A stretch of 64,000 nt of DNA, taken from NCBI GenBank assembly GCA_025210775.1, contig JAOARB010000020.1, forward strand, positions 1 to 64,000, read 5' to 3'. The position numbers and the translations under genes were made by a program. Position 1 is the first letter of the stretch; the number at the start of each line of letters is the position of its first letter. This document shows positions 1,784 through 21,838 of this stretch, one piece after another. This DNA comes from Prolixibacteraceae bacterium. GTDB lineage: Bacteria > Bacteroidota > Bacteroidia > Bacteroidales > Prolixibacteraceae. The notes beneath the pieces were generated by a model. It made no database searches. It was not told the origin of the DNA and saw only the letters and a program-made list of their open reading frames with translations.

Positions 1784-3103
1784 CTAATATCTTTTCTTTA
1801 TGGTGATCCAGAGTCCTGAAAAGAGCATTATCGTTCCAAAAGAGAGGAATATAATAAGCAAACTATTACGTAACCACGGGATCGATTTTAGGCTTCCTAT
1901 TTTAAACGAATGTAATCCTCGATAAAGGAAATTATTCAGACGTTTTTCGTTATCCAAATAGCGCAACACTTTTCCCTCTTTTAGATCCAAGACAAAAGAG
2001 CTATCGCCAGGGTCGTTAGCCTTGATCGTAATGGTGTGATCGTCCTGTTTGGTCAAAGCATATTTCCATTTGGGAGCGAGCTCCTTAAATCTACTACACA
2101 CAAAAGCTTCGTCCCAGACATCGTTCTGCCCTGAAGCAGTAATAATGCGATGGGAGCCATCTTTAGAGGAGATCTTAAGGAGTGCTGTGCCTCCTACATT
2201 TTTCCATTCCATCGCTACGATGCCATCCAAAGAGGAAGGAAAGATCTTTTGGTTGTTATCTATCCACGGTGCGGGTTGCCACAGTGAAGCCACGTCCGTT
2301 TTTATTCCCTTCGGAGCAAAACGATTAGAGACATGATGCAAAGAGAAAAAACCACTTAATATCCATGTGATGACCACCAACCCGAATGCCATACCAAAGA
2401 AGAAATGGTATCGGTGGGCTTTCTTCTTATATGGATTACGTTTTTTGGCTTTAAAAAAGACCATCCAACCATAGATATATCCCGTTATGGCAGCCAACAA
2501 AGAGAACAGACACAAGATCTTAATCACATTAACCCAAGTAGAGGTATGCTCTCTTAAGGATTTAAAATACAACCAATGGGGTATGGCTCCAAAATAGGCT
2601 ACCCACCTCTGTTTTGGAGTAGTCTTTTGAACGACCTCACCGTTCACAGAGGAGATATAGAGCTGTGTACCATCCTCAAAATAATATTTATAAATGGGCA
2701 ATAATGGTCGTTTATGGCTCCAAGGAATCCATGTGTCAAGATCATTAAGTAGCTTCTTTTCCATGGGTGTTTTTTCCATCAGTAAGGCAGCATAACGATC
2801 ACAAGCTTCCGATGGTTCTAGTAAGATCTTCTTCAAGAAGACAGTGTCTCTTGAAGAAGATTTATATTCGGTAATCTCTTTCCAACCAAACGCACAATAA
2901 GTAATTTTCTTACTCGTGTATTGTCCTTCTAGATGAGGTTGGATCTCTTTAGGGATCATGGGGCCTCGTTTCTTTGTCCAAGAAGAAGAGGCATGAGGGA
3001 ATCCTCCAATAATCATAAAGAAACCACTAATAAACCATACCAACATTATTGGTAGGAATATCAATCCAAAGATGCGATGGGTTTTTAAAAGAAATTTTTT
3101 CAT
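1784..3103 (-). CDS. PepSY-associated membrane protein paired with TonB receptor
   Basis: This 439-residue inner-membrane protein belongs to the PepSY_TM (PiuB-like) family, whose members accompany siderophore or metal-chelate receptors and are thought to act on the imported ligand, possibly as membrane reductases; the precise activity is not established. Transmembrane segments are visible at about 13-33 (IFGLIFLPIMLVWFISG), 190-215, 233-252 and 410-432. His10 in KTHRIFG, His229 in KAHRYHFFFG and HHVSN near the third helix resemble haem- or metal-ligand positions of the family. The gene starts 4 bases after the receptor gene, so the two are almost certainly co-transcribed and share the upstream cobalamin riboswitch. 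Assignment to the family is firm; substrate is inferred. Confidence 0.82.
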   Translation of the reverse strand: MKKFLLKTHRIFGLIFLPIMLVWFISGFFMIIGGFPHASSSWTKKRGPMIPKEIQPHLEGQYTSKKITYCAFGWKEITEYKSSSRDTVFLKKILLEPSEACDRYAALLMEKTPMEKKLLNDLDTWIPWSHKRPLLPIYKYYFEDGTQLYISSVNGEVVQKTTPKQRWVAYFGAIPHWLYFKSLREHTSTWVNVIKILCLFSLLAAITGYIYGWMVFFKAKKRNPYKKKAHRYHFFFGMAFGLVVITWILSGFFSLHHVSNRFAPKGIKTDVASLWQPAPWIDNNQKIFPSSLDGIVAMEWKNVGGTALLKISSKDGSHRIITASGQNDVWDEAFVCSRFKELAPKWKYALTKQDDHTITIKANDPGDSSFVLDLKEGKVLRYLDNEKRLNNFLYRGLHSFKIGSLKSIPWLRNSLLIIFLSFGTIMLFSGLWITIKKRY

Positions 3104-3107
3104 TATA

Positions 3108-5357
3108 CTATAGTTTTACACCAAGTGTGACACTCCAGTTGCGACCCGGAGAAGCGATATATTGGTTAGAGTAGACTGCAGAATCATAATACAACTCATC
3201 CGTAAGGTTTTTAACATTCAGTTGTAACCAATAGTGTTTCTTGTCATAACGAGCCCCTAAGTTCTGAACGACATAAGATGGTACTTCATAACTATTGCTA
3301 CTATTGGTGAATTGTTTATCTGTATAAACGACTCCCCACCACATAGACAATCCTTTCATCGCACCAGTAGTAAATTTATAGTCCAAAGAACCGTAAGCTG
3401 TATTTTTAGGAGAGAAACTACCTTCTTTGTCATTTGAATCTAACGTTTCGTTGTAGCCATATCCTCCACGTAGTTTCCAATTATCAGCAAACAACCAAGA
3501 GAAGTCAAGCTCAGCTCCTTTTGATTTCACTTTTCCTAATTGGCTATATATATTTTTGTTCTCTTCGTTCTTACCGACATAAGTTTTCACATTGTGTTTG
3601 GTAATGCTATAAACGTTTGCTTGTAGAGAGAAGAATCTTTTTTCCACCTTAGCTCCTAACTCATACTGCACCCCATCTTCTGGGTCAAACACATGATCTT
3701 TAGAAGAGGCATCGTAAGCCACCCCATTCTTGTCTTGATAGATATAGTTAGGGTTATAAACCTCACGATAAGGACGATAGAAACTAGATACCGAACCAAA
3801 TAGTGTAACATCATCCATCACCTCTTGGACTAATCCTACTTTATAAGAGAAAGAGTTGTCTTTCATTGATTTGGTATCACTGATATTAGACCAGTTTTTA
3901 TCGCTGTCCACATCCGCCGTTTTCTTGTCATAGAAAAAGAAATCATAACGACCACCAAGCATCAGTTTGGTTGTATTGGTTAACTCCACAAGATCTTGTA
4001 GGTAGAAGCCAAATATTTTATCATCGTAAGCATTTACACGAGAAAGCTTATGGAAGATATCTCCTTGATCAAGGGTTGGATTCTCTACAGAAACCAAAGC
4101 ATGTTCACCAGGTCCATAAACATCATCTTTACCATATCCGGTATAGGAATTTCTATCCGTATAGTAAGAGTTATGCCCAAGAGTAATGTGGTGGTCCATA
4201 CCTAGAACATTTACTTTAGATAGATATTCTAAGCTTGCTTGAAATGTACGAGTAACATGTTGGAAACGTAATGGATAACTTCTTTGAAGCGTATTTACAT
4301 CGATATACGTTTTTGTATCTCCATTCATGTAATAATGATCCATTGTCTTATCCTTAGAGGTAACATAGGTTAACTCTTCTGTAGAGAAGTAATCAATATT
4401 GTCATCATTATAGGAAGCTACCAGTCTCAATGATTGATCTTGGGTAAAATCATGCGTCCATTCTACCGACACATTTTTGTTTATTGATTTTAGGAAATCA
4501 GCAGGATCGTTATAACGCTGTTCTCTAGTCATATTAGATGGCAATTCACCTTTGCTATAAACTTGCTTATCCGTTGCTGTTTCGAATATATTATTCTTAA
4601 AAGCAGGCGTACCTGCCTCTGTGTCATAACGATCATTAAAAGTACCTATACGTAATTCAATATTGTCATTGGTAGAAGGTTTCCATCCTAAAGCAAAATA
4701 TAGGTTGTTAATCTTTTTACCATTGTCTCTCCATCCATCAGTACGAAGAAGTTCTCCATCTAAACGTACCGCTAGGTTAGGATTGATATGCTTAGAATAA
4801 CTTAATCTAACATCATGACTATTGTATGAGCCGATATTGTATAGCAAAGAGCCTTCTTCTTTATCCCATGGGGATTTTCTTACGATATTAATAATTCCTC
4901 CAACAGAAGAGCCACCATAAAGAGCAGATGCCGGTCCTTTTAGATACTCTACTCTTGCTACATTAGCCAAAGAAGACATAGGAGCACTACTAGAATAGAC
5001 CATACGGTAATCGATTTGTCCATCCATCATGATTACTGGTTTACCAAAACCTCTCATACGGAATGTTTGGAAACCACCATAGTTTTGTCTTGCTTTAATA
5101 CCTGTGGTGTAGTTGAACGCATCATTGATGCTTTTAACATCCAACGTCTCCATCTCTTTGGTGTTAATGGTGGCAGTAGATACAGGAATGTATTTTAGTG
5201 GGACGTCCACTTTAAGTGCACTCTCTTTGGTGTGAAGAGAAGTTCCATGAATAGCGACCTCATCGATTTGGATGGTATCTTTATCGATACGGGTCTGAGA
5301 AAAGACATGCCCCGTTATAAGGCATAAAATTAGTGTTAACGATGTAGTGAATTTCAT
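3108..5357 (-). CDS. TonB-dependent outer-membrane receptor (cobalamin-riboswitch controlled)
   Basis: A 749-residue receptor with a signal peptide (about 1-20, ending HVFSQ), a plug domain (about 45-165; FRMRGFGKPVIMMDGQ, then VEYLKGPASALYGGSSVGGIINIV) and a 22-strand type barrel to the C-terminus. Plug and barrel resemble the siderophore-receptor group (FhuA/FoxA-like) more than SusC. Energy comes from TonB-ExbBD, which is not encoded here. A cobalamin riboswitch lies in the 5' untranslated region, so expression is expected to fall when B12 is plentiful. The cargo may therefore be a corrinoid, cobalt chelate or a compound used when B12 is scarce, rather than ferric siderophore. The gene is followed at once by the PepSY membrane protein. 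No CarboxypepD_reg-like N-terminal extension of the Bacteroidota SusC type was noticed. Confidence 0.9.
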   Translation of the reverse strand: MKFTTSLTLILCLITGHVFSQTRIDKDTIQIDEVAIHGTSLHTKESALKVDVPLKYIPVSTATINTKEMETLDVKSINDAFNYTTGIKARQNYGGFQTFRMRGFGKPVIMMDGQIDYRMVYSSSAPMSSLANVARVEYLKGPASALYGGSSVGGIINIVRKSPWDKEEGSLLYNIGSYNSHDVRLSYSKHINPNLAVRLDGELLRTDGWRDNGKKINNLYFALGWKPSTNDNIELRIGTFNDRYDTEAGTPAFKNNIFETATDKQVYSKGELPSNMTREQRYNDPADFLKSINKNVSVEWTHDFTQDQSLRLVASYNDDNIDYFSTEELTYVTSKDKTMDHYYMNGDTKTYIDVNTLQRSYPLRFQHVTRTFQASLEYLSKVNVLGMDHHITLGHNSYYTDRNSYTGYGKDDVYGPGEHALVSVENPTLDQGDIFHKLSRVNAYDDKIFGFYLQDLVELTNTTKLMLGGRYDFFFYDKKTADVDSDKNWSNISDTKSMKDNSFSYKVGLVQEVMDDVTLFGSVSSFYRPYREVYNPNYIYQDKNGVAYDASSKDHVFDPEDGVQYELGAKVEKRFFSLQANVYSITKHNVKTYVGKNEENKNIYSQLGKVKSKGAELDFSWLFADNWKLRGGYGYNETLDSNDKEGSFSPKNTAYGSLDYKFTTGAMKGLSMWWGVVYTDKQFTNSSNSYEVPSYVVQNLGARYDKKHYWLQLNVKNLTDELYYDSAVYSNQYIASPGRNWSVTLGVKL

Positions 5358-5494
5358 TATATGTTCAATTTTAAATAAGTGTATTCCTATTCAAAATCAA
5401 ACTACCAAGCAACAGATATCTATCATTGAGAATATCTTCTTCCCCCCAATGTATACCTAGCCATTATTCCCGATAGCTGATTACGTAACTTATA

Positions 5495-5665
5495 TGAAGT
5501 AGGTTTTCTGACTTGGAATCCGTTTAGCTCCTTCCCAACTCCCTAGAGTCAGTGGCTTTCTGCTAAAAAGTATACATTCCTTACAGCTGCGGGTACAGTT
5601 CTTGATTTACACAAGATTCCCTAAGTAGCAAACCATTAGATTCACTACAAACCTTCAAAAAGCAC
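5495..5665 (-). promoter_or_regulatory. Cobalamin (B12) riboswitch
   Basis: Read on the minus strand, the segment contains the ordered conserved blocks of the cobalamin aptamer: gggaatcttgtgtaaatc, aagaactgtacccgcagctg (the B12-box-type C-C-C-G-C core), then gccactg, and finally ccaagtcagaaaacctac, which pairs back to the 5' aaggtttg to close P1. It lies 138 bases upstream of the TonB receptor start and in the same direction. The expression platform between 5358 and 5495 has a possible gatat / atatc hairpin, but I cannot decide between transcriptional and translational control. Confidence 0.92.
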
Positions 5666-5816
5666 GCAATTTTAGTCAAAAAAAGAGAACCATGCAACGG
5701 CATGATACGATTTGTGAATAAAAAAAATTTAAATAAAATTTATTTATAGAGTAGAAATATCATTATTTTACTGTTATACTTGTAATGAATATTACGACTA
5801 GGAAAAATTCTATTAA

Positions 5817-9066: not shown

Positions 9067-10131
9067 TTATGATTTGGCAATGTAGTCAGCCAACCAATCT
9101 CCCACTTGGGATGTTTTAAAACTCTTTTCTTTATCAATATCTTCAGTAACCACGCCTGCATCCATAGAAGCCAAAACAGCTTTTCTAATCAAAGCACCTT
9201 CTTCTTTAAGGTCGAAAGCAGTCTCAAACATCATGGCAACAGAAAGAACTGTTGCAATAGGGTTTGCGATATCTTTACCCGCAGCTTGTGGATAAGAACC
9301 ATGAATAGGCTCAAATACGCTTGTATGCGTACCAACAGAAGCAGAAGGCAGAAGTCCTAAAGAACCAGTAATCACACTAGCCTCATCGGTTAGAATATCA
9401 CCAAACATGTTCTCTGTAACCATCACATCGAATTTTTTTGGCCACTGAATAATCTGCATTGCTGCATTATCCACAAACATATAATCGGTCTCTACTTCAG
9501 GATATTCTTTTTCAATCTTCTGTGCCACTTCTCTCCACAATCTTGAAGTCTCCAGAACATTGGCTTTATCCACGACAGTCACTCTTTTGTCTCTTTGAAG
9601 CGCAAATTTATAAGACAGATGTAAAATACGCTCAATCTCTTCTCGTGTATAAACACAGTGGTCAAAAGCACCATTATTATCTTCTGTTCTACCCTTATCA
9701 CCGAAATAGATACCACCAGTTAATTCTCTAAGGCATAAGAAATCAGCTCCTTCTACCAACTCTCTTCTTAGTGGGGATTTATGTAATAGAGAAGGGAATG
9801 TCGTTACAGGACGAAGGTTTGCATACAATCCCAACTGTTTACGCATACGCAAAAGACCTTGTTCTGGACGCACCTTAGCAGTAGGATCATTATCAAAACG
9901 AGGATCCCCAATAGCACCAAAAAGAACTGCATCAGCATCCATACATATTTGGTGGGTAGATTCTGGATAAGGATCTCCTACTTGATCTATGGCAGTAGCA
10001 CCAACAATACCTTCATTTGTTGTCACTTCGTGTCCGAATTTGGTAGCGACAGCATCTACTACTTTTAATGCTTGATTGATGATTTCAGGACCGATACCAT
10101 CACCAGGAAGAACAGCTATATTTAATTTCAT
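9067..10131 (-). CDS. leuB: 3-isopropylmalate dehydrogenase
   Basis: A 354-residue NAD-dependent beta-decarboxylating dehydrogenase, the third step from 2-ketoisovalerate to leucine. N-terminal PGDGIGPEI, the substrate-binding arginines ([21 protein letters not shown]), [10 protein letters not shown], the catalytic Lys in VDKANVLE, and the metal-binding [11 protein letters not shown] are all present. The NAD-site [15 protein letters not shown] matches the dehydrogenase rather than the isocitrate paralogue. It is the last gene of the nine-gene operon, 13 bases after the preceding synthase. It could also serve the citramalate route to isoleucine. Confidence 0.96.
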
Positions 10132-10144
10132 TACTTTCTTATTT

Positions 10145-11680
10145 TTAATAATTATCGACTTCTAATTCAATTACATTTAACATCTTAATGGTTGCTTTGA
10201 TGGCAGCAGCCGTTTGGTCGCTTTCCAATCCTCTTGTTTTAAAGATCTTTCCATACTTCCAAGTAATCACGGTCTCTACCAATGCATCTGTTCGTCCTCC
10301 TGGAGGAATCGTTACAGAATAATCCATCAACACTGGAAAAGGTTTATTCAATTTGGCATAGATCATTCGAAGAGAATTCATAAAAGCATCATATTGACCA
10401 TCCCCAGCAGAGGTAGCCTGATGAACGTCTCCATCAATATCAATAGAAACAGTTGCTGTTGGATTCAAACCAAACGTATGTACCAAAGAGTAGTTACACA
10501 ATCTTATCCGCTGTTCCACTTGATGGTTTTGTAACACATCAGAGATGATATAAGGCAGATCTTCAATCGTTACATTCTCTTTCTTATCGGCCAGCTCAAT
10601 GATTCTATCCGTTACGATCTTTAGTTCATCGGGGTCCATCTCCACCCCTAATGCTTCTAAATTCTTTTTAATATTGGCCTTACCAGATGTCTTTCCAAGA
10701 GCATATTTACGCACTCGACCAAAACGTTCGGGTAAGAGGTCATTATAATAAAGCCCATGTTTGTTGTCTCCATCGGCATGAACGCCACTACATTGGGTAA
10801 AGACATTCTCTCCTACCACTGGACAGTTGGCAGAGGTTCTAATTCCAGAATAAGACTCCACCATCTTCGATAGCAAAGAGATCTTTTTCTCCTGTACCCC
10901 TGTAGTAAAATCGGTATGGTCATGAATCAAAGCAACCACACTTGCCAATGGTGCATTTCCAGCTCTTTCACCTAACCCGTTGACGGTAGTGTGTACTCCT
11001 TGTGCACCAGCATTCAAGGCAGCAAGCACATTTGCGACAGATAGATCATAATCGTTATGGGCATGAAAATCGAAATAGATCGCAGGAAAATGAGAAACCA
11101 TTTGCTCCATAAATAGAGAGGTCTCCGAGGGAGTTAGAATACCTAAGGTATCAGGTAACATAACACGACCTAACTTTTCTGTATCCACTCCTTTTAGAAG
11201 GTCAAAGACATAGGAAGGATCTTGCTTCATTCCGTTCGACCAATCCTCAAGGTATAGATTCACATCAATACCAGCCAAACAAGCGTAATCAATAGCCTCA
11301 TTAATATCAGAGATATGTTGGGGCAAACTCTTTTTTAATTGATGCTTAAGATGGTTGGCCGATCCTTTAGAAAGAAGGTTCATCACTGTTCCCCCTACTT
11401 CTTGAATCCACTGTAATGATTTTCCCTTATCTACAAACCCCAAAATTTCTATTTTAGAATGTAGACTTTTGCTCTTTGCCCAGTCTATAATCTTTTTGGC
11501 AGCCATAAATTCACCTTGAGATACACGAGCCGACGCTATCTCAATAGAGTCCACACATAGATCTTGAAGTAAAAATTTCGCTATCGAGAGTTTCTCATGA
11601 GCAGAAAATGCCACTCCTGAAGTTTGTTCACCATCTCGTAGCGTGGTATCCATAATAGATATTGTACGGTTTTCTATCAT
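10145..11680 (-). CDS. Second isopropylmalate/citramalate-type synthase
   Basis: A 511-residue member of the alpha-isopropylmalate synthase family (HMGL-like TIM barrel, then C-terminal regulatory LeuA dimer domain from about 385). The catalytic TTLRDGEQT start, [16 protein letters not shown] metal-site histidines and [12 protein letters not shown] are conserved. It is distinct from the other synthase in this operon (13829-15331) and lies between leuD and leuB. Bacteroidota operons often carry this paralogue; (R)-citramalate synthase, which starts isoleucine synthesis from pyruvate using LeuCD and LeuB, is the leading alternative to a second leucine enzyme. The residues that set substrate choice cannot be judged by eye, so the specificity is left open. 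Confidence 0.85.
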
Positions 11681-11760
11681 AATGAGGGAAGAATATCATT
11701 GCTTCAGACATACAAAACATCTGAAGCAATGGCTATATTATTTAGATTTGATAAATCAAT

Positions 11761-12348
11761 TTATTTTTGTTCGAAGGTCTCGATATCCGACTTCATATGA
11801 AGTAGATAATCGATATCATCGTAACCTTTCAACAAACACTCTTTCTTATATGGGTTAATATCAAACGACTCGGAAATTCCCAATGCGGTATGAGATATGG
11901 TTTGATTCTCTAGATCAACCACTAGCTCTGTTGATGGATCTGCTTCTACAGAAGAGAAGATCTTAGCTAGAAAAGACTCGGAAACCACTACAGGAAGAAG
12001 ACCATTGTTCAATGCATTGCCTTTAAAAATATCTGCAAAGAAACTAGATACTACCACTTTATATCCGTGATCATAAATAGCCCAAGCAGCGTGCTCACGA
12101 CTAGAGCCACTACCAAAATTCTTACCTGCAACTAGAATAGAGCCACTAAAACGTGGGTCATTAAGAACAAATTCGCTGTTTAGTGAACCATCCTTATTAT
12201 ATTTCCAGTCGCGAAATAGATTATCGCCAAAACCTTTACGTTCAGTTGCCTTCAAAAAACGTGCAGGGATAATCTGATCCGTATCTACATTTTCGATTGG
12301 CAATGGTACAGCCGTACTCTTTAATGTTTCAAATTTATCTATTGACAT
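11761..12348 (-). CDS. leuD: 3-isopropylmalate dehydratase small subunit
   Basis: A 195-residue swivel-domain subunit that pairs with LeuC to isomerise 2- to 3-isopropylmalate. The conserved [28 protein letters not shown] and [17 protein letters not shown] segments are intact and the length is typical. It follows leuC by 29 bases. The same complex may isomerise citramalate if the downstream synthase is CimA. Confidence 0.95.
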
Positions 12349-12377
12349 AACTTTTTACTCAAAAAATAAGACTTCAA

Positions 12378-13775
12378 TTATAACTCTCTAGGATCTGTTA
12401 TCACCCCTGTTACTGCCGCAGCAGCTGCTACTAGAGGGCTAGCCAGTAATGTTCTAGCACCAGGTCCTTGACGTCCTTCAAAGTTTCTATTAGATGTAGA
12501 AACCGAATATTTACCTGCCGGGATCTTATCGTCATTCATTGCCAAACAAGCAGAACATCCTGGTTCTCTCATTTTAAAACCAGCCTCTTCTAGGATCTCT
12601 ACCAATCCTTCCTCTTGTGCTTGTTTCTCCACTACTTTAGATCCAGGAACAATCCATGCAGTTACATTGTCTGCCTTTTTCTTTCCTTTAACAAATTGTG
12701 TGAATGCACGAAGGTCTTCGATACGTCCATTGGTACAACTACCCACGAAGACATAATCGATAGGATGTCCGATCATTTTCTGACCAGCAGTAAAGCCCAT
12801 ATACTCCAAAGACTTCTCAAATGAGATCTTATCGGTACCTTCAAGATTATCTCCCATAGGAACATTTCCTTGAACAGAAACCCCCATTCCAGGATTCGTA
12901 CCATAAGTAATCATTGGTGCAATATCCTCCGCTTTATAACTATACTCCATATCAAATGCAGCACCATCATCACTTTTCAGTTCACTCCATTCTGATACAG
13001 CTTGATCCCATGCCTCTGCTTTAGGAGCAAAAGGACGACCTTGAACATAGTCAAAAGTAGTTTGATCAGGAGCAATCATACCACCACGAGCACCACATTC
13101 GATACTCATATTACATAGCGTCATACGTCCTTCCATCGAAAGGTTCTCGATAGCACTACCAGCATATTCAATAAAATATCCTGTTCCACCCGAAGTGGTA
13201 AGTTGAGCAATCACATAAAGTGCGATATCTTTGGCAGTCACTCCCTCACCCAATTCACCATCGACACGAATTAACATCGTCTTTGGTTTAGGTTGCATAA
13301 TACACTGAGAAGCAAAGACCATCTCCACTTCACTGGTTCCAATACCAAATGCAATACTACCAAAAGCACCATGAGTAGAAGTATGGCTATCCCCACAAAC
13401 GATAGTCATTCCTGGTTGCGTATATCCCATTTCTGGACCCACCACGTGAACAATACCATGGTTTGGACTTCCTAAACCATAATATTGTACTCCATGATTA
13501 GCACAGTTTTTTGCTAATGTATCAACCTGAAAACGAGACTCCTCATCTTTGATAGGCTTATCTTGATCGATCGTAGGCACGTTATGGTCTGGTGTAGCTG
13601 TCGTTTGAGCAGGACGAGCCACTTTCAATCCTCTATTTTCAATACCAGCAAAAGCAACAGGACTGGTCACTTCATGAATAAAATGTCTATCAATATAGAC
13701 TACATTGGGACCTCCCTCCACTTTCTTTACCACATGGGCATCCCATATCTTATCAAATAATGTCTTTGGTTGCAT
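12378..13775 (-). CDS. leuC: 3-isopropylmalate dehydratase large subunit
   Basis: A 465-residue aconitase-superfamily subunit. The [4Fe-4S] cysteines are visible in [12 protein letters not shown] and [11 protein letters not shown], together with the [10 protein letters not shown] and [14 protein letters not shown] substrate-site segments. It starts 53 bases after the leuA stop and precedes leuD, the usual order. Function with LeuD is well established for the family. Confidence 0.96.
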
Positions 13776-13828
13776 ATATAATTGTTATTTTTTTATACAA
13801 TAATTTATTAGGAAATATAAAGTCCGAA

Positions 13829-15331
13829 TTACACCGTTGCTACTTTATTAATGGCATCAATAAAAGCCTCCACCGATGCGATCACAATATCTGTATTGGC
13901 ACCAAAGCCATGATAAAAATGATCGTTATAATTAATGGTCATGTGTACCTTTCCAATATCATCACTTCCTCTAGTGATGGCCTGAATTAAGAACTCTTCT
14001 AGGATCACTTTTTTACGTAAAATATCCTTCACGGCACATATGGCAGCATCCACAGGACCATTACCATTGCTACAAGCGGTAAATATTTCACCTGCAACAT
14101 TTAATTTTACGGTAGCCATAGGCACAAGATTTTTACCCATCACCACCTGAATATCTTCAAGCTTAATACGCTGACCATTACTCTTGGCCACTTCTCCAAC
14201 CAAGACCAATAGGTCATCTTCTTTAATGTCTTTCTTTTTATCTGCTAGTTGTAGGAACTCTTGATAAACCTCATCTAACTTCTCTGTAGTTAAATCCACA
14301 CCCAATACCTCTAAACGGTGTTTTAATGCAGCCCTACCACTTCTTGCGGTAAGAACAATAGACGACTCCTTTATTCCTACATCTTCTGGATCAATAATCT
14401 CATACGTTTCTCTATTCTTCAATACCCCATCTTGGTGGATACCAGATGAATGAGAGAATGCGTTTCTACCTACAATAGCTTTATTAGCCTGAACAGGCAT
14501 GTTCATTAAAGTAGAAACCAATCGAGAAGTCTTATATATATTTTGGGTTTTAATATTTGTCTCTAATTGCAAATCTTGATGGCTCTTTAATGTCATCACC
14601 ACCTCTTCTAGTGAAGTATTACCTGCTCTCTCACCAATACCATTCAATGTTACCTCAACTTGTCGAGCACCATTGATCACACCAGAGATGCTGTTTGCTG
14701 TAGCCATTCCCAAATCATTATGACAGTGAGTGGATAAAATAGCCTTATGTACATTAGAGACATTCTCCATCAAGAACTTAATCTTCTCACCAAACTGATG
14801 AGGCAAACAATAGCCCGTTGTATCTGGAATATTAACTACAGTAGCTCCTGCTGCAATTACTGCTTCAACCACTTTTGCCAAATAAACATTATCAGAACGG
14901 CCTGCATCCTCTGCATAGAATTCTACATCCTCCACATATTTCTTTGCATACTTCACCGCAGCCACGGCTCTCTCAAGCACCTCATCCTCTGTAGAGTTCA
15001 GCTTATATTTAATATGATAAGGAGAAGTACCTATTCCTGTATGAATACGACCACGTTTGGCATACTGAAGAGCTTGTGCTGCCACATCAATATCATTCTG
15101 AACGGCTCTTGTTAAAGCACAAATGGTAGGCCATGTTACGGCCTTAGAGATTTCTACTACAGAATTAAAATCACCAGGACTAGACACAGGGAATCCTGCT
15201 TCAATAACATCCACGCCGAGATCTTGGAGGGCTTTAGCCACTTCAATCTTCTCCACGGTATTCAACTGACATCCTGGAACTTGCTCTCCATCTCTTAAGG
15301 TTGTATCGAAAATATAGACTCTATCTGCCAT
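13829..15331 (-). CDS. leuA: 2-isopropylmalate synthase
   Basis: A 500-residue synthase that condenses acetyl-CoA with 2-ketoisovalerate, the committed leucine step. [42 protein letters not shown] (metal-binding His) and [15 protein letters not shown] are typical of LeuA. The C-terminal regulatory domain (about 365-500) is present, so leucine feedback is possible. It is preceded by a 120-base gap after ilvC that contains a 13-bp hairpin, and followed by leuC. Confidence 0.94.
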
Positions 15332-15402
15332 ACTGATTTATTTATTATTTAGGGTCAAAACTAGTTTGGAAGTTTCTGCTTCCGCTTAAAGTGAATTAGT
15401 AG

Positions 15403-15437
15403 CAGCATATACTATCTTGGTTCAATAGTATATGCTG
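15403..15437 (-). other. Intercistronic 13-bp hairpin between ilvC and leuA
   Basis: A perfect 13-bp inverted repeat (15403-15415 with 15425-15437; arms begin cagcatatac) with a 9-base loop lies in the operon's longest internal gap. No T run follows in either direction, so it is not a classic terminator. An mRNA-processing or stability element between the ilv and leu halves is the simplest inference. Confidence 0.6.
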
Positions 15438-15451
15438 TAGAAGGATAAATA

Positions 15452-16498
15452 TTACTTGTTTTCAGGACGAAGCTGACGAACAGTTTGACCTGCTTGCCAC
15501 ATCTCTGAATCTCTCAATTCTTTCAATTCTGCTTCCAATTTCACTCTATAGTCTGGTTGGCTATTTGAATCAATAGAACGTTGTGCTTCATTACCACAAG
15601 CTACCTCATCATATAGTTTTTGGAAAACAGGCTTTGTTGCATCACGGAAAGGTTTCCACCAGTCTAATGCACCTCTTTGTGCTGTTGTAGAAGTATTGGC
15701 ATACATCCAATCCATACCGTTTTGTGCAACCAATGGCATCAAACTTTGAGTCAATTCCTCTACTGTCTCATTGAATGCCTCTGATGGGGTATGTCCCATT
15801 TCACGAAGTACTTCATATTGAGCAGCAAAAACACCTTGGATACATCCCATCAAAGTACCACGCTCACCAGTAAGGTCAGAATATACTTCACGTTTAAAGT
15901 CTGTTTCAAACAAATATCCTGAACCAACACCGATACCCAAAGAGATTACTCTATCATAGGCTTTTCCTGTTGCATCTTGATAGATTGCATAACTTGAATT
16001 CAAACCTCTTCCTTCAAGGAACATGGTACGCAAACTAGTACCTGATCCTTTTGGTGCTACAAGAATAACATCTACATCTGCAGGAGGAACGATACCTGTT
16101 CTATCATTAAAAGTAATACCAAAGCCATGTGAGAAATAAAGAGCTTTACCAGCAGTAAGATGCTTCTTCACTGTTGGCCATACAGCAATCTGTCCAGCAT
16201 CAGAAAGTAGATATTGAATTACGGTTGCTTTCTCACAAGCCTCCTCAATATCAAAAAGATTCTCTCCAGGAACCCATCCATCAGCTACTGCTTTATCCCA
16301 AGTTTTAGACTCTTTTCTCTGTCCTACGATCACATTAAAACCATTATCTCTTAGGTTTAGTGATTGTCCTGGTCCTTGTACTCCGTAACCGATAACAGCA
16401 ATGGTTTCATCTTTCATTACTTCACGTGCTTTTTCCAAAGGAAACTCTTCACGCATTACTACTTTCTCTTCAACTCCACCAAAATTTAACTTTGCCAT
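15452..16498 (-). CDS. ilvC: Ketol-acid reductoisomerase
   Basis: A 348-residue KARI that converts acetolactate or acetohydroxybutyrate to the dihydroxy acids with NAD(P)H and Mg2+. The Rossmann motif GYGVQGPGQ, the cofactor loop VGQRKESKTW, LVAPKGSGTSLR and the Mg-binding DLTGERGTLMG / EVYSDLTGE segments are present. Length and a single knotted domain fit class I-like enzymes of Bacteroidota. Third step enzyme of the operon's ilv half, 39 bases after ilvN. Confidence 0.95.
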   Translation of the reverse strand: MAKLNFGGVEEKVVMREEFPLEKAREVMKDETIAVIGYGVQGPGQSLNLRDNGFNVIVGQRKESKTWDKAVADGWVPGENLFDIEEACEKATVIQYLLSDAGQIAVWPTVKKHLTAGKALYFSHGFGITFNDRTGIVPPADVDVILVAPKGSGTSLRTMFLEGRGLNSSYAIYQDATGKAYDRVISLGIGVGSGYLFETDFKREVYSDLTGERGTLMGCIQGVFAAQYEVLREMGHTPSEAFNETVEELTQSLMPLVAQNGMDWMYANTSTTAQRGALDWWKPFRDATKPVFQKLYDEVACGNEAQRSIDSNSQPDYRVKLEAELKELRDSEMWQAGQTVRQLRPENK

Positions 16499-16537
16499 TT
16501 TTCTTGTTTTAATATGTTAGAATAATCTTATTTTTCT

Positions 16538-17092
16538 TTATCTATTTTGATCTAAACCTGTCAATACCCTATCTCTTTCTTTAAGAAACACCGACAGCTT
16601 TTCAATATCTGATTTTGTAATTGCCACCCTTCCTGAACGAATAAACTGTAGCACACCAAATCGATTCAATTTCTCAAACAATTCTTGAGTCTCCTCTTTA
16701 TGTCCTGTCTTCTCAATCACCGTATAATGAGGAGTAATCTCCAAAATACGTGCATGATACTCTCTTACAAGTTTTTCAATATGGTTTCCTGCAATAAGAG
16801 ATTCAGACGACACTTTATAAAGCGCTACTTCTTGGTGAACCACCTCCTCATTACGATGGAAGAAACATTTTAGAACTTCCACATGACGTTCAATCTGAAC
16901 ACACAGTTTTTTTATTCTATCTTCATAATCCATCACAACAATAGTGAACTTGCTTATCCCCGCGATCGCCGATTCCGAAACAGTCAAGCTATCAATATTC
17001 ATCCTTCTACGGGTAAACATTATCGTTATACGGTTTAACAATCCAATGGTATTCTCGGTATAAGCAGATATGGTAAATTCTTGTTTTTGCAT
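16538..17092 (-). CDS. ilvN: Acetolactate synthase small (regulatory) subunit
   Basis: A 184-residue ACT-domain subunit that confers valine feedback on IlvB. The first ACT domain (about 3-80; FTISAYTENTIGLLNRITIMFTRR) and a second half with the HKEETQELFEKLNRFGVLQFIRSGRVAI C-terminal block, here cited in part only, match the family. It follows ilvB by 12 bases. Either ilvN or ilvH naming is acceptable. Confidence 0.92.
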   Translation of the reverse strand: MQKQEFTISAYTENTIGLLNRITIMFTRRRMNIDSLTVSESAIAGISKFTIVVMDYEDRIKKLCVQIERHVEVLKCFFHRNEEVVHQEVALYKVSSESLIAGNHIEKLVREYHARILEITPHYTVIEKTGHKEETQELFEKLNRFGVLQFIRSGRVAITKSDIEKLSVFLKERDRVLTGLDQNR

Positions 17093-17104
17093 AGTACTTA
17101 AATA

Positions 17105-18838
17105 TTATGAATTAGGGGTTAGTTTCACATCCGACACCGTAGCCCCAGAAGGAACCATAGGAAAAACATTGTCTTCTTTTTCTACTCTTACCTCCAAGAA
17201 ATAAGGACCGTCTGTTTCGATCATCTCTGCAATTGCTCTATCTAAATCGTCTCTTGTAGTAACTGTTTGAGCAGGGATACCATAACCATCTGCAATCTTG
17301 ATGAAATCAGGATTATGCATATGGGTAAAAGAGTATCTACGATCAAAGAACAGCTCTTGCCACTGGCGTACCATTCCTAAGAACTCATTGTTTAGAACAA
17401 TCACTTTAACATTCAAATTCTCTTGTCTTATGGTAGCCAACTCTTGTATGGTCATTTGAAAACCACCATCTCCAAGAAAAGCAACCACCGTTTTATCTGG
17501 AGCACCAACGGCAGCTCCTACCGCAGCAGGAAGGCCAAAACCCATTGTTCCAAGACCACCAGAGGTAACACAACTACGACTATTTTTAAACTTAAAATAT
17601 CGAGCTGCAAACATCTGTTGCTGACCAACATCGGTTGCCATCACAGCCTGATGGTTTGTAGCATCTGCTACTTTATTTACCACCTCAGGCATCGTCAAAG
17701 ACTCCTTTGTTGGATACAAATCGTTTTTAATGACTTGTTCATACTCTTGTTCCGCAAAAGGTTTAAAGGCATCATGCCAAGAATCGTGATGATTCTCTTT
17801 CACCAGATGATTCAACATCTTCAATGCCTTCTTAGCATCACTACAGATAGCCACCTCTACAGGTATATTTTTATTTATCTCCGATGGATCAATCTCAATA
17901 TGAATCACTTTTGCTTGTGTAGCATACGTTTTCACATCTCCTGTAACCCTATCATCAAAACGCATTCCTACAGCAATCAATAGGTCACACTCATTGGTTA
18001 AAACATTAGGACCATAATTCCCATGCATTCCTAACATCCCTTTCCATAATGGATGATCGGAAGGAACGGCTGAAAGACCAAGCAATGTTGAAGCCATTGG
18101 TATATTGGTCTTCTCTACAAATTGCAACAACTCTTTCTCTGCTCCAGACAACACCACCCCTTGACCTACAAGCAGGAATGGCTTCTTGGCATTATCAATA
18201 AGATGAGCCGCTTCCACCAATGCCTCTTTATCTACAGGCTGTTCTGGCAAATAACTTCTAATACGAGAACATTTTTTATACTGGAAATCAGTGGTCTGAA
18301 ACTGTGCATCTTTCGCTATATCAATTAATACAGGTCCAGGTCTTCCACTTCGTGCAATAAAAAATGCTTTAGCCACCACCTCAGGAATCTCCTCAGCTCT
18401 AGTGATCTGATAATTCCATTTGGTCACGGGCATTGACATTCCCACAATATCCGACTCTTGAAAAGCATCTGTTCCCAATAAAGGGCTAGTCACCTGACCA
18501 GTAAAACAGACCAAAGGAGTAGAATCGACCATCGCATCCGCAATACCTGTAATCAGGTTGGTAGCTCCAGGTCCAGAAGTAGCCAAACAAACTCCAACAT
18601 TACCAGAGACTCGAGCATATCCTTGCGCTGCATGGATAGCACCTTGCTCATGACGAGTTAAAATATGGTTTATTTGATCAAGGAAATCATACAATGCATC
18701 ATATACAGGCATAATCGCTCCCCCGGGATAACCAAAGATGGTATCCACTCCTTCTTCAATCAAAGACCTAATCAATGCTTGAGCACCAGTTAAGTTCTCT
18801 CCTTTTCTTTCAAGTGAATTTTGATTTTGGGTAGTCAT
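17105..18838 (-). CDS. ilvB: Acetolactate synthase large subunit
   Basis: A 577-residue thiamine-diphosphate enzyme that makes acetolactate or acetohydroxybutyrate. GYPGGAIMPVYDAL and RHEQGAIHAAQGYAR (active-site Glu), the FAD-binding central domain, and the C-terminal TPP motif GDGGFQMTIQEL ... NNEFLGMVRQWQ are all visible. It lies 31 bases after ilvD and forms a complex with the downstream IlvN. Confidence 0.96.
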   Translation of the reverse strand: MTTQNQNSLERKGENLTGAQALIRSLIEEGVDTIFGYPGGAIMPVYDALYDFLDQINHILTRHEQGAIHAAQGYARVSGNVGVCLATSGPGATNLITGIADAMVDSTPLVCFTGQVTSPLLGTDAFQESDIVGMSMPVTKWNYQITRAEEIPEVVAKAFFIARSGRPGPVLIDIAKDAQFQTTDFQYKKCSRIRSYLPEQPVDKEALVEAAHLIDNAKKPFLLVGQGVVLSGAEKELLQFVEKTNIPMASTLLGLSAVPSDHPLWKGMLGMHGNYGPNVLTNECDLLIAVGMRFDDRVTGDVKTYATQAKVIHIEIDPSEINKNIPVEVAICSDAKKALKMLNHLVKENHHDSWHDAFKPFAEQEYEQVIKNDLYPTKESLTMPEVVNKVADATNHQAVMATDVGQQQMFAARYFKFKNSRSCVTSGGLGTMGFGLPAAVGAAVGAPDKTVVAFLGDGGFQMTIQELATIRQENLNVKVIVLNNEFLGMVRQWQELFFDRRYSFTHMHNPDFIKIADGYGIPAQTVTTRDDLDRAIAEMIETDGPYFLEVRVEKEDNVFPMVPSGATVSDVKLTPNS

Positions 18839-18869: not shown

Positions 18870-20699
18870 TTATACAAGTCTTACTGCTCCTTTGTCTGCA
18901 GAAGACACTAATTTTGAATAAGCCTTTAAAGCTTTCGATACTTTTCTATCTCTAGTCTTAGGAGTATAGGCTGCCTCCCCTCTAGACTCTTGTGCTTTCT
19001 TCCTCTCAGCCAACACCTTATCAGATACGGCCAGATGAATCGTTCTTTGAGGAATATTAATCTCAACTGGGTCTCCATCTTCAACCAAGGCGATAAGCCC
19101 TCCTGCTGCAGCTTCTGGAGAAGCATGACCGATAGAAAGGCCAGACGTACCACCAGAAAAACGACCATCAGTAAGTAGTGCGCAAGCCTTATCAAGCTTC
19201 ATTGATTTCAGATAAGAAGTAGGATACAACATCTCTTGCATTCCCGGACCTCCTTTAGGTCCTTCATATCTGATAATCACCACATCTCCCGCTTGTACCG
19301 CATCTCCTAAGATACCATTACAAGCATCCTCCTGTGATTCAAAGACTCTGGCTGTTCCACTAAACTCAAATACCGAAGCATCCACTCCAGCCGTCTTTAC
19401 GATACATCCATTTTCTGCTATATTTCCAAAAAGAACGGCAAGACCACCATCTTGATAATAAGCACTTTCCACGGAACGAATACAACCATTATCTCTATCC
19501 ATGTCTAGCAATTCATAGCTAGAATCTTGAGATCCCAGTTGAAGGTTACGTCCAATATTACCTGGAGCAGAACGATATATCTCTAAGGCCTCTTCGGAAA
19601 CCTCTCTGTTACAGATATCATAACTTGACAATGTCTCTTTAAGACTCTTTCCATCCGCTCTATAAACAGCAGTATCCAATAATGCCGCTTTATTCAGTTC
19701 AGCCAAAATTCCTAGTACACCACCAGCTCTATTGACATCTTGAATGTGATATTTCGAATTCGGAGCTACCTTACATAGACATGGAACCTTGCGAGACAAT
19801 GCATCCATATCGTGCATATTAAATGACACCTCAGCCTCTTGTGCTACTGCCAACAAATGAAGCACCGTATTGGTAGACCCTCCCATAGCAATATCTAAAG
19901 TCATGGCATTCATAAAAGCCTCTCTCGTTGCAATCGAACGAGGAAGAACCTTCTCATTTCCATCACGGTAATACTCATAAGCCATATCCACGATACGAGA
20001 AGCAGCCGTCTCAAAAAGCTTCTTTCTATTTGCATGTGTGGCCACTACTGTACCATTACCAGGAAGAGACAAGCCTAAAGCCTCCGTCAAACAATTCATT
20101 GAATTGGCAGTAAACATTCCTGAACAAGAACCACATGTAGGGCAAGCACTCTGCTCTAATCGTTTCAGTTTTTCATCATCATAAGAACTATCAGCACCTT
20201 TAACCATCGCATCCACTAGATCATAATGCTCTCCATCCATTTCACCAGCTTCCATAGGGCCACCAGAAACAAAGATCGTTGGAATATTCAATCGCATACT
20301 AGCCATCAACATTCCCGGTGTAATCTTATCACAGTTTGAGATACAGATCATTGCATCCACTTTGTGTGCATTACACATATATTCGACGCTATCAGCGATG
20401 ACCTCTCTTGAAGGCAGGGAATAAAGCATTCCATCATGCCCCATCGCAATTCCATCATCAATAGCAATGGTGTTAAATTCCGCAGCGAAACAACCTTTAG
20501 ACTCAATGATCTTTTTTACATCTTGTCCGACCTCATGCAAATGCACATGACCTGGGACCATCTGAGTAAAAGAGTTCACAATAGCAATAATTGGTTTACC
20601 AAAATGATCTTCTTTCATTCCGTTTGCTCTCCAAAGGCTACGAGCTCCAGCCATTCTTCGCCCCTCTGTAGTTACTGAACTTCTTAGTTTCTTATGCAT
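18870..20699 (-). CDS. ilvD: Dihydroxy-acid dehydratase
   Basis: A 609-residue dehydratase of the IlvD/Edd family; it forms the 2-keto acids of valine and isoleucine. Cluster cysteines are Cys123 ([10 protein letters not shown]) and Cys192 ([12 protein letters not shown]), with the region [14 protein letters not shown] of the [4Fe-4S] Escherichia coli type. The C-terminal [21 protein letters not shown] motif carries the catalytic serine. It is the first structural gene of the operon and sits directly behind the proximal attenuator, with only 17 bases between the terminator's T tract and the ATG. Confidence 0.96.
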
Positions 20700-20716: not shown

Positions 20717-20759
20717 AATAAAAAAAGAGCCTTTCTCATCCATGTGAGAAAGGCTCTTT
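20717..20759 (-). terminator. Proximal attenuator (terminator) of the ilv/leu operon
   Basis: On the minus strand a perfect 15-bp stem (20745-20759 with 20724-20738), 6-base loop and a run of seven T form a strong intrinsic terminator between the leader peptide and ilvD. The 5' arm plus loop (cctttctcacatg) can instead pair with catgtgagggagg at the end of the leader peptide, 13 bp with two G-U pairs. The two folds exclude each other, as in ribosome-mediated attenuation. Confidence 0.88.
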
Positions 20760-20791
20760 CGTTTTGATATGTACGTATACGTAAACCTCCC

Positions 20792-20854
20792 TCACATGCT
20801 TTTCATGAGAATAATAATGACGATGAGAATAATATTTACAATAATCGATAACAT
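20792..20854 (-). CDS. Branched-chain leader peptide, proximal copy
   Basis: A 20-codon minus-strand frame (ATG at 20852-20854, TGA at 20792-20794) encodes MLSIIVNIILIVIIILMKSM. Thirteen of 20 residues are Ile, Val or Leu, with an uninterrupted Ile-Ile-Leu-Ile-Val-Ile-Ile-Ile-Leu block. It lies between a promoter and the attenuator in front of ilvD. The stop codon lies inside the sequence that can pair with the terminator, so a ribosome reaching the stop would block antitermination, and one stalled on the Ile/Val/Leu block would allow it. A regulatory leader, not a functional protein. Confidence 0.88.
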   Translation of the reverse strand: MLSIIVNIILIVIIILMKSM

Positions 20855-20918
20855 ATCTACTTAACCTTTTTATATGAATTTCTTTTTCTACTCTTTATTT
20901 CTATTTATTGTCACGATT

Positions 20919-20948
20919 CAAAAGTATAGATATTTTTTACACTTCAAA
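20919..20948 (-). promoter_or_regulatory. Promoter of the proximal ilv leader
   Basis: On the minus strand TTTG, an 18-base spacer and TACTTTTG match the Bacteroidota -33/-7 pattern. The distal copy has the same elements and spacing at 21360-21389. Positions may be off by one or two bases. Confidence 0.65.
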
Positions 20949-21167
20949 AATAAATCGTAATATTTTTCTTGTTCTTAATATTAAATTAAAACTAACACTC
21001 TTGTTTTTCTTACATTTATTGAGCGTCAAACATAATATCCCCAATAGCAACGATTACAGTTCACCTATAATCATCACATCCTCAATTCGATTTTTAAAAA
21101 GTAAAACTTCCCATACAATGGACTAAGTTTGAAAACAAAGTCAAAATCGAATATTTAATAATTGGAT
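20949..21167. other. Spacer between the two leader cassettes
   Basis: It separates the proximal promoter from the distal terminator. I see no gene; the plus-strand frame 20908-21126 is low-complexity and crosses the promoter. On the minus strand only tiny frames occur, so no recognisable ilvD remnant marks how the cassette was duplicated. Confidence 0.4.
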
Positions 21168-21203
21168 ATAAAAAAAGCCTTTCTCATCAATGTGAGAAAG
21201 GCT
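21168..21203 (-). terminator. Distal attenuator of the ilv/leu operon
   Basis: On the minus strand an 11-bp perfect stem (21193-21203 with 21176-21186), 6-base loop and seven T form a terminator nearly identical to the proximal one. The alternative pairing of atgtgaggaagg (leader end) with cctttctcacat (5' arm) is 12 bp with one G-U pair. Confidence 0.86.
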
Positions 21204-21238
21204 CTTTCCAAAACGATATATACTTACGTAAACCTTCC

Positions 21239-21301
21239 TCACATACTATTCAGCAGAATAATAATGACGAAGACAATAATATTTACGACAGTAGATAACA
21301 T
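21239..21301 (-). CDS. Branched-chain leader peptide, distal copy
   Basis: A second 20-codon frame on the minus strand (ATG at 21299-21301, TGA at 21239-21241) encodes MLSTVVNIIVFVIIILLNSM, with 12 of 20 residues Ile, Val or Leu. It aligns residue for residue with the proximal leader (MLS-x-x-VNII-x-x-VIIIL-x-x-SM) while the DNA differs at many positions, so the peptide pattern appears to be under selection. It has its own promoter upstream and attenuator downstream. Confidence 0.86.
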   Translation of the reverse strand: MLSTVVNIIVFVIIILLNSM

Positions 21302-21359
21302 ATCTGTTTTGCTATATTTTTACAGCTCTATTAGCTGATTTTATTTCTTAACTACGATT

Positions 21360-21389
21360 CAAAAGTAGAGATATTTTTTTTAGATCAAA
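21360..21389 (-). promoter_or_regulatory. Promoter of the distal ilv leader
   Basis: On the minus strand TTTG (21386-21389), an 18-base spacer and TACTTTTG (21360-21367) give a good -33/-7 pair, 59 bases before the distal leader start. This is the outermost promoter found for the operon. Confidence 0.68.
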
Positions 21390-21838
21390 ACTAATTCGAT
21401 ATTTTTTTATCTCGATTAACATTAAATTAAAACCAGAACAACAACTATACTTACACTTAATCTTACTTATTTTACACAAAAACCAAACAGTCAACCAAAC
21501 TACTCTTTTTCAGTAAGATATACCTCTAAAAACTACAACCAATAAAAACACAGAAAACACTCGTTCCAACAAGAGTTATACTTCTGATTAACAATCATTT
21601 CCAAACTACACAAAAGAACCCATCTAGAATTCAAGAAATATAGGTTAACTATTAGGGTTTCTCGATAAGAATGATGGTGAGATATTTTTTTGAAAATAAT
21701 AATGAATTTACAATCTTTTTCTATCCGCTGCTTCTTATCCGAAGGTGTTATCCCCTATGGTTATACAGGTCATAATTCCACGATTACCCAATAGTACTTA
21801 AACCTATATCAACCCGATTTTATGACAATATATACTTT
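21390..21838. other. Gene-free stretch upstream of the ilv promoters
   Basis: AT-rich, without a credible reading frame, tRNA or terminator. Nothing can be assigned here. Confidence 0.4.

Follow-up and report, generated by a model that had tools for sequence, protein, structure and literature searches.

Why does a single biosynthetic operon carry two leader cassettes in front of its first gene, and how would each of them act? Enterobacterial attenuators such as those of ilvGMEDA, leu, his and trp combine a leader peptide rich in the end product, three mutually exclusive hairpins and an intrinsic terminator ahead of the operon. An initial annotation of the window (the whole stretch of 64,000 nucleotides analysed here, from a bacterium of the Prolixibacteraceae) had placed two minus-strand cassettes, offset by about 447 bp, before a nine-gene ilv/leu operon and had proposed that they control it by leader-peptide attenuation.

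Two leader cassettes precede an ilv/leu operon

The operon was confirmed by NCBIfam matches to its nine genes, which lie in the order ilvD-ilvB-ilvN-ilvC-leuA-leuC-leuD-cimA-leuB. The cassettes are thus located upstream of a biosynthetic operon, ilvD to leuB, for the amino acids that they would sense. The name of the cimA-like gene (10145-11680, minus strand) is tentative, its best NCBIfam match, CimA, reaching 646.8 bits and lying below the curated 950; the presence of a citramalate-synthase-like gene suggests a route to isoleucine from pyruvate. The 120-nt gap between ilvC and leuA (15332-15451, minus strand) contains a long hairpin, GCATATACTATTGAACCAAGATAGTATATGC, with no U-tract, a possible processing site. 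No leu-specific attenuator was found between ilvC and leuA inside this operon. Elsewhere in the window, a cobalamin riboswitch (RF00174, 82.8 bits; 5481-5671, minus strand) lies 5' of minus-strand genes at 3108-5357 and 1784-3103, and was the only Rfam match of the window to reach the gathering score.

Both cassettes carry a leader ORF rich in codons for the end products of the operon. The distal ORF, MLSTVVNIIVFVIIILLNSM, contains 12 Ile, Val or Leu among its 20 residues (5 Ile, 4 Val, 3 Leu) and the proximal one, MLSIIVNIILIVIIILMKSM, 13 of 20 (8 Ile, 2 Val, 3 Leu), that is 60-65% in both cases, in agreement with the composition first reported. The two ORFs are exactly 447 bp apart, the cassettes as a whole 441-447 bp. 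An equally I/V/L-rich ATG ORF appeared in 39 of 3000 Markov-shuffled runs, and two such ORFs in none of the 3000. Valine codons in the leaders were GTC in 54% of cases, as against 15% in ilvD at the same loci, a preference consistent with selection on the leader codons, which RNA structure could also favour. Bacteroidota start translation largely without Shine-Dalgarno pairing.

The promoter assigned to each cassette, TTTG-N18-TACTTTTG, was recovered at both sites by pattern matching. The more general TTTG-N18-TAnnTTTG pattern matched only at P1 and P2 in the 64 kb window, where 0.48 matches would be expected by chance; at least two matches were obtained in 8 of 100 shuffles. P2 occupies the position of the sole promoter in three other species of the genus. 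Among relatives with a single attenuator, 87 of 89 have a TAnnTTTG box at most 140 nt 5' of the leader, as compared with 5 of 104 control windows. An A/T-rich element, GTTTTAATTTAATNTTAA, precedes both promoters; it is kept in all four members of the genus and is absent from the four other family loci checked. The coordinates of all features are collected in Table 1.

Table 1. Coordinates of the tandem cassettes and of the downstream operon in the window.
Feature	Position	Strand	Basis or remark
Upstream element GTTTTAATTTAATGTTAA, distal	21416..21433	-	possible UP element or regulator site, putative function
Distal promoter P1, TTTG-N18-TACTTTTG (Bacteroidota type)	21360..21389	-	pattern match
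Distal segment 1, 5' half of leader, outer strand of 1:2 hairpin	21281..21304	-	duplex energy and compensatory pairs
Distal leader ORF MLSTVVNIIVFVIIILLNSM	21239..21301	-	20 residues; conserved across the family
Distal segment 2 ATGTGAGGAAGGTTT, overlapping the stop codon	21230..21244	-	3' strand of 1:2 and 5' strand of antiterminator
Distal intrinsic terminator, segments 3:4 and U-tract	21168..21207 (about)	-	-17 kcal/mol or stronger, 12-16 bp
Upstream element GTTTTAATTTAATATTAA, proximal copy	20975..20992	-	sequence comparison
Proximal promoter P2, TTTG-N18-TACTTTTG	20919..20948	-	pattern match
Proximal segment 1	20834..20857	-	duplex energy and compensatory pairs
Proximal leader ORF MLSIIVNIILIVIIILMKSM	20792..20854	-	20 residues
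Proximal segment 2 ATGTGAGGGAGGTTT, overlapping the stop codon	20783..20797	-	pairing prediction
Proximal intrinsic terminator, segments 3:4 and U-tract	20719..20760	-	-23.5 kcal/mol, 16 bp
ilvD, dihydroxy-acid dehydratase, first operon gene	18870..20699	-	NCBIfam match
ilvB, ilvN, ilvC, leuA, leuC, leuD, cimA-like citramalate synthase, leuB	9067..18838	-	NCBIfam matches

Three competing pairings are predicted in each leader

Folding of both leaders, a check suggested with the initial annotation, predicted a terminator, a 2:3 pairing and a 1:2 hairpin in each copy. The intrinsic terminators described earlier were found again, lying between leader and first gene. The antiterminator, which excludes the terminator in silico, is formed by segment 2 and the 5' arm of the terminator (segment 3); that its first strand overlaps the leader stop codon was likewise supported. 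This pairing had been described in both copies as 12 and 13 bp long; its presence stood, and the lengths proved slightly short, 14-15 bp including G-U pairs being found in each. The predicted energies were -21.6 kcal/mol (z -5.6) for the distal copy and -22.9 kcal/mol (z -5.3) for the proximal copy, z-scores being computed against mononucleotide shuffles. Over 161 modules, the median energy of the 2:3 pairing was -15.8 kcal/mol, z was below -2 in 137 of them, and the pairing started at a median of 6 nt before the end of the stop codon. Segments 2, 3 and 4 covary between lineages (GAGAAAGG/CCTTTCTC, GAGAATGG/CCATTCTC and GGGAAAGG/CCTTTCCC), each of the cores CCTTTCTC, CCATTCTC and CCTTTCCC being accompanied by matching partners. 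The exception is one clade that pairs GAGATTGG with CCTTTCTC, where the core mismatches.

The 1:2 hairpin, formed by the leader ORF and the region after its stop codon, competes with the antiterminator in silico and is conserved in the genus. Its duplex was predicted at -28.4 kcal/mol (z -5.0) in the distal copy and at -18.6 kcal/mol (z -1.9) in the proximal copy. In the middle helix (helix 2), 4 of 10 pairs showed changes on both sides among five modules from the genus; this covariation score was matched by none of 500 shuffles and dropped sharply once the partner strand was slid. A 1:2 hairpin with covariation indicates the classical 1:2 / 2:3 / 3:4 design and not a two-state switch. The initial claim that the cassettes lack a separate pause hairpin was thus not upheld.

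Predicted effect of ribosome position on antiterminator and terminator

We then folded the nascent RNA by minimum free energy with a ribosome footprint assumed to mask 16 nt before to 14 nt after the start of the A-site. In both copies, 13-15 antiterminator pairs formed when the A-site was at codons 2-16 and none when it was at codons 17-21; the last I/V/L codon is codon 16 in the proximal leader and codon 17 in the distal one. Folding of the full-length RNA favoured the terminator in most stalled states, and the model therefore depends on the 2:3 pairing forming first. With no ribosome, the distal copy folded into 1:2 and the proximal copy into 2:3, before arm 4 is made; energy estimates thus point to a possible difference between the copies.

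These predictions suggest the following mechanism. Scarcity of Ile-, Val- or Leu-tRNA would cause a ribosome to stall within leader codons 2-16, opening the 1:2 hairpin and releasing the stop-codon region; the freed segment 2 would pair with the 5' arm of the terminator, and the polymerase would continue into ilvD. When the amino acids are abundant, a ribosome at codons 17-21 would mask segment 2, and the 3:4 terminator would end transcription. Transcripts from P1 would meet two attenuators and those from P2 one, and the duplication has probably provided a second stream of transcripts that is under tighter gating. If both promoters fire, the output can be written P1×r1×r2 + P2×r2. With assumed values (r rising from 0.1 to 0.9, equal promoters), a single cassette gives 9-fold induction, the present arrangement about 15-fold and a pure series 81-fold.

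The second cassette probably arose within the genus

The two cassettes are about 76% identical over some 280 nt and therefore do not represent an assembly duplicate. The other three species in our sample of four genomes from the genus have a single cassette, in the proximal position and preceded by a promoter of this kind. A tree of attenuators placed the two copies as sisters (support 0.776) within the well-supported clade of the genus (0.999), and the tandem copying therefore most likely took place in this bacterium's own lineage, after it had separated from its three congeners. The copied unit comprises the upstream element GTTTTAATTTAATNTTAA, promoter, leader and terminator, which supports the earlier view that an entire cassette, promoter included, was duplicated. 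The terminators are identical at 38 of 39 positions, compared with 96 of 129 in the flanking spacer (Fisher p = 0.001), a pattern that continued selection on both copies would produce; gene conversion would be an alternative explanation.

Attenuators and tandem pairs in related genomes

Comparison with related genomes, which had also been suggested at the outset, showed that leader and alternative pairing are conserved across the family: almost all family ilvD loci whose upstream sequence was long enough had an I/V/L-rich leader with a terminator following at a similar distance. We built a covariance model from 58 modules, most of which came from this family. It matched in 138 of 140 family genomes, a count that is partly circular for that reason; the corresponding numbers of genomes were 95 of 294 for the order and 41 of 296 for the class. 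The weak model matches inspected elsewhere in the bacterium's own genome were plain terminators or coding sequence.

Tandem attenuators precede ilvD at 16 of the 105 family loci with at least 450 nt of upstream sequence, in 8 of 23 genera; at one of the 16 (L029), the proximal leader fell below the search filter. They are present also in Labilibaculum/Marinifilum. Adjacent pairs of model matches were detected in seven further genomes of the order (G336, G404, G269, G237, G276, G289 and G418) and, as model matches alone, in four of the class (G715, G525, G527 and G655). Four of the seven order pairs precede a close ilvD homologue and two a distant IlvD (33-34% identity); for the remaining one, IlvD was not found within the stretch. 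The modules before this distant IlvD class (L243 and L247, in G276 and G289) are attenuator-like and of the branched-chain amino acid (BCAA) type. In G418, which belongs to another family, two nearly identical leaders, VKNIYLHIISIILLVLIIQGL and MIKTCLHIISIILLVLIIQGL, with terminators that are likewise nearly identical, precede ilvD in tandem (L244, G418:C1:854900-856800), and by their sequences this pair is a second, independent recent duplication.

Most tandems of the family are built differently. Their distal attenuator is of another type (CCATTCTC) than the proximal one and groups with leuA attenuators (0.982), and the gap between the two attenuators measures about 20-120 nt and lacks a TAnnTTTG box. 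In relatives with separate leu operons (L203-L209), leuA has before it a similarly designed, Leu/Ile-rich leader and a CCATTCTC-type terminator, and these leuA attenuators group with the distal ilvD attenuators of other genera. Fusion of ilv and leu operons was considered as the source of the tandem copies and rejected: fused operons with one attenuator exist (e.g. G001, G003, G009, G070), as do unlinked operons with two (e.g. G037, G005, G065). As judged by promoter patterns, the present species is the only case in the set examined with its own promoter for each attenuator. The duplication of an entire cassette had been called unusual. This holds in our sample for the copying of promoter plus attenuator; it does not hold for tandem attenuators as such, which were found before ilvD in no fewer than 8 of the family's 23 genera, as well as in several further families, and have been published for mgtCBR (PMC3641672).

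Discussion

We consider it very likely that each cassette is a classical ribosome-mediated transcription attenuator, and this assessment covers the whole explanation, including the tandem duplication and the second transcript stream. Anatomy, conservation, covariation and the age of the duplication relative to the genus were observed in silico; we infer that ribosomes stall, that transcripts terminate and that the promoters are used, as well as what two copies do physiologically. The leaders, the terminators and the covarying antiterminator lend support to the attenuation of the ilv/leu operon as first proposed.

Other readings of the same features were weighed. The antiterminator 2:3 and the terminator 3:4 might suffice as a switch with no 1:2 hairpin, since they are the most conserved pairings, alifold predictions for some clades (the ILILV set) contain little or no 1:2, and the proximal copy would fold to 2:3 in a ribosome-free transcript before arm 4 exists. 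However, the prediction of 1:2 in both copies, its compensatory changes in the genus and the 1:2 fold of the ribosome-free distal copy make such a switch unlikely. Slightly more weight, though still well short of a probable account, can be given to the distal cassette being a relic of recent duplication without regulatory role, with the proximal one alone controlling the operon. One cassette suffices in the other three species of the genus, and the duplication is young relative to the genus, so that a recent copy might simply not have been lost yet; but none of the elements of the distal cassette (ORF, antiterminator, terminator, promoter) is disrupted, although the spacer separating them has diverged, and tandem attenuators recur elsewhere.

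The different Ile and Val counts of the leaders raise the possibility that the copies have diverged in specificity, the distal one responding mainly to Val and Ile and the proximal one mainly to Ile. We find this doubtful, as all three amino acids are kept in both leaders and the differences are few and mostly I/V/L exchanges. It is very improbable that the cassettes act on translation or yield small RNAs and do not attenuate transcription. Short terminated transcripts would resemble small RNAs in RNA-seq, and a weak match to the Bacteroides sRNA BTnc231 was obtained (E 0.033), but the strong terminators with U-tracts and the covariation of the antiterminators agree with attenuation of transcription, and the BTnc231 matches are far below cut-off, with the best genomic matches at other loci. 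At a relaxed Rfam threshold, the best matches in the window, Thr_leader at 27.2 bits and BTnc231 at 22.5 bits, were likewise far below cut-off. BTnc231 was also rejected as a Bacteroides counterpart: no gathering-level match was found at 15 ilvD loci, mostly from Bacteroidales, and its best matches in the genomes searched were at unrelated loci, those inspected being plain terminators.

Taking the cassettes as classical attenuators, we tentatively propose, at slightly less than even chances, that serial duplication of whole attenuators is a recurrent means of tuning the gain of BCAA operons in Bacteroidota. It would have arisen several times, from copies of the same type (here and in G418) or from two types with distinct antiterminators, and the near-universality of the attenuators within the family would imply tight coupling of transcription and translation in the phylum. 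Ribosome-mediated attenuation in Bacteroidota could be tested clearly at this locus, and its predicted operation would require polymerase and ribosome to be coupled there. Single, tandem-same and tandem-different attenuators all occur naturally before one gene, and comparing them would test directly how serial attenuators affect gain and dynamic range.

According to a 2010 survey, the only phyla in which leader-peptide systems had to its authors' knowledge been shown were Proteobacteria and Actinobacteria, to which it added Firmicutes (PMC2965389). For Bacteroides thetaiotaomicron, sORFs located in long 5' UTRs are mentioned in general terms (PMC7366714). No Bacteroidota amino-acid leader-peptide attenuator was described in the literature searched, although the comparative study of Lopatovskaya et al. 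2010 (Mol Biol 44:128), cited in PMC4833913, may contain predictions for Bacteroidota. The principle of attenuation and tandem attenuators are already known; no prior report of the present element was found in the literature searched.

The cassettes resemble the enterobacterial ilvGMEDA, leu, his and trp attenuators in their end-product-rich leader, three exclusive hairpins and intrinsic terminator. They differ from them in the Bacteroidota-type promoter, in the position of segment 2 over the leader stop codon and in the presence of two tandem cassettes, and show no detectable sequence relation to them, no Rfam leader family reaching the gathering score. Tandem T-box leaders, e.g. that of Bacillus thrZ, also place complete attenuators in series before one gene, T-boxes binding uncharged tRNA directly, whereas the leader is translated here. 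A T-box leader was rejected for the present locus, Rfam giving no T-box match in the window. The attenuator of Corynebacterium ilvBNC likewise has a BCAA leader peptide and a three-hairpin model outside enterobacteria, but belongs to another phylum, and the abstracts on it describe one attenuator (PMC11857589, PMC10272879). In Salmonella mgtCBR, two short leader ORFs also stand in series before one operon, and tandem attenuators respond to ATP and proline (Lee and Groisman 2012; PMC3641672). In mgtCBR the signals and the ORFs are different, whereas the leaders described here are paralogues rich in the same amino acids, with codons for Ile, Val and Leu in both and some difference in their shares, and each has its own terminator and putative promoter.
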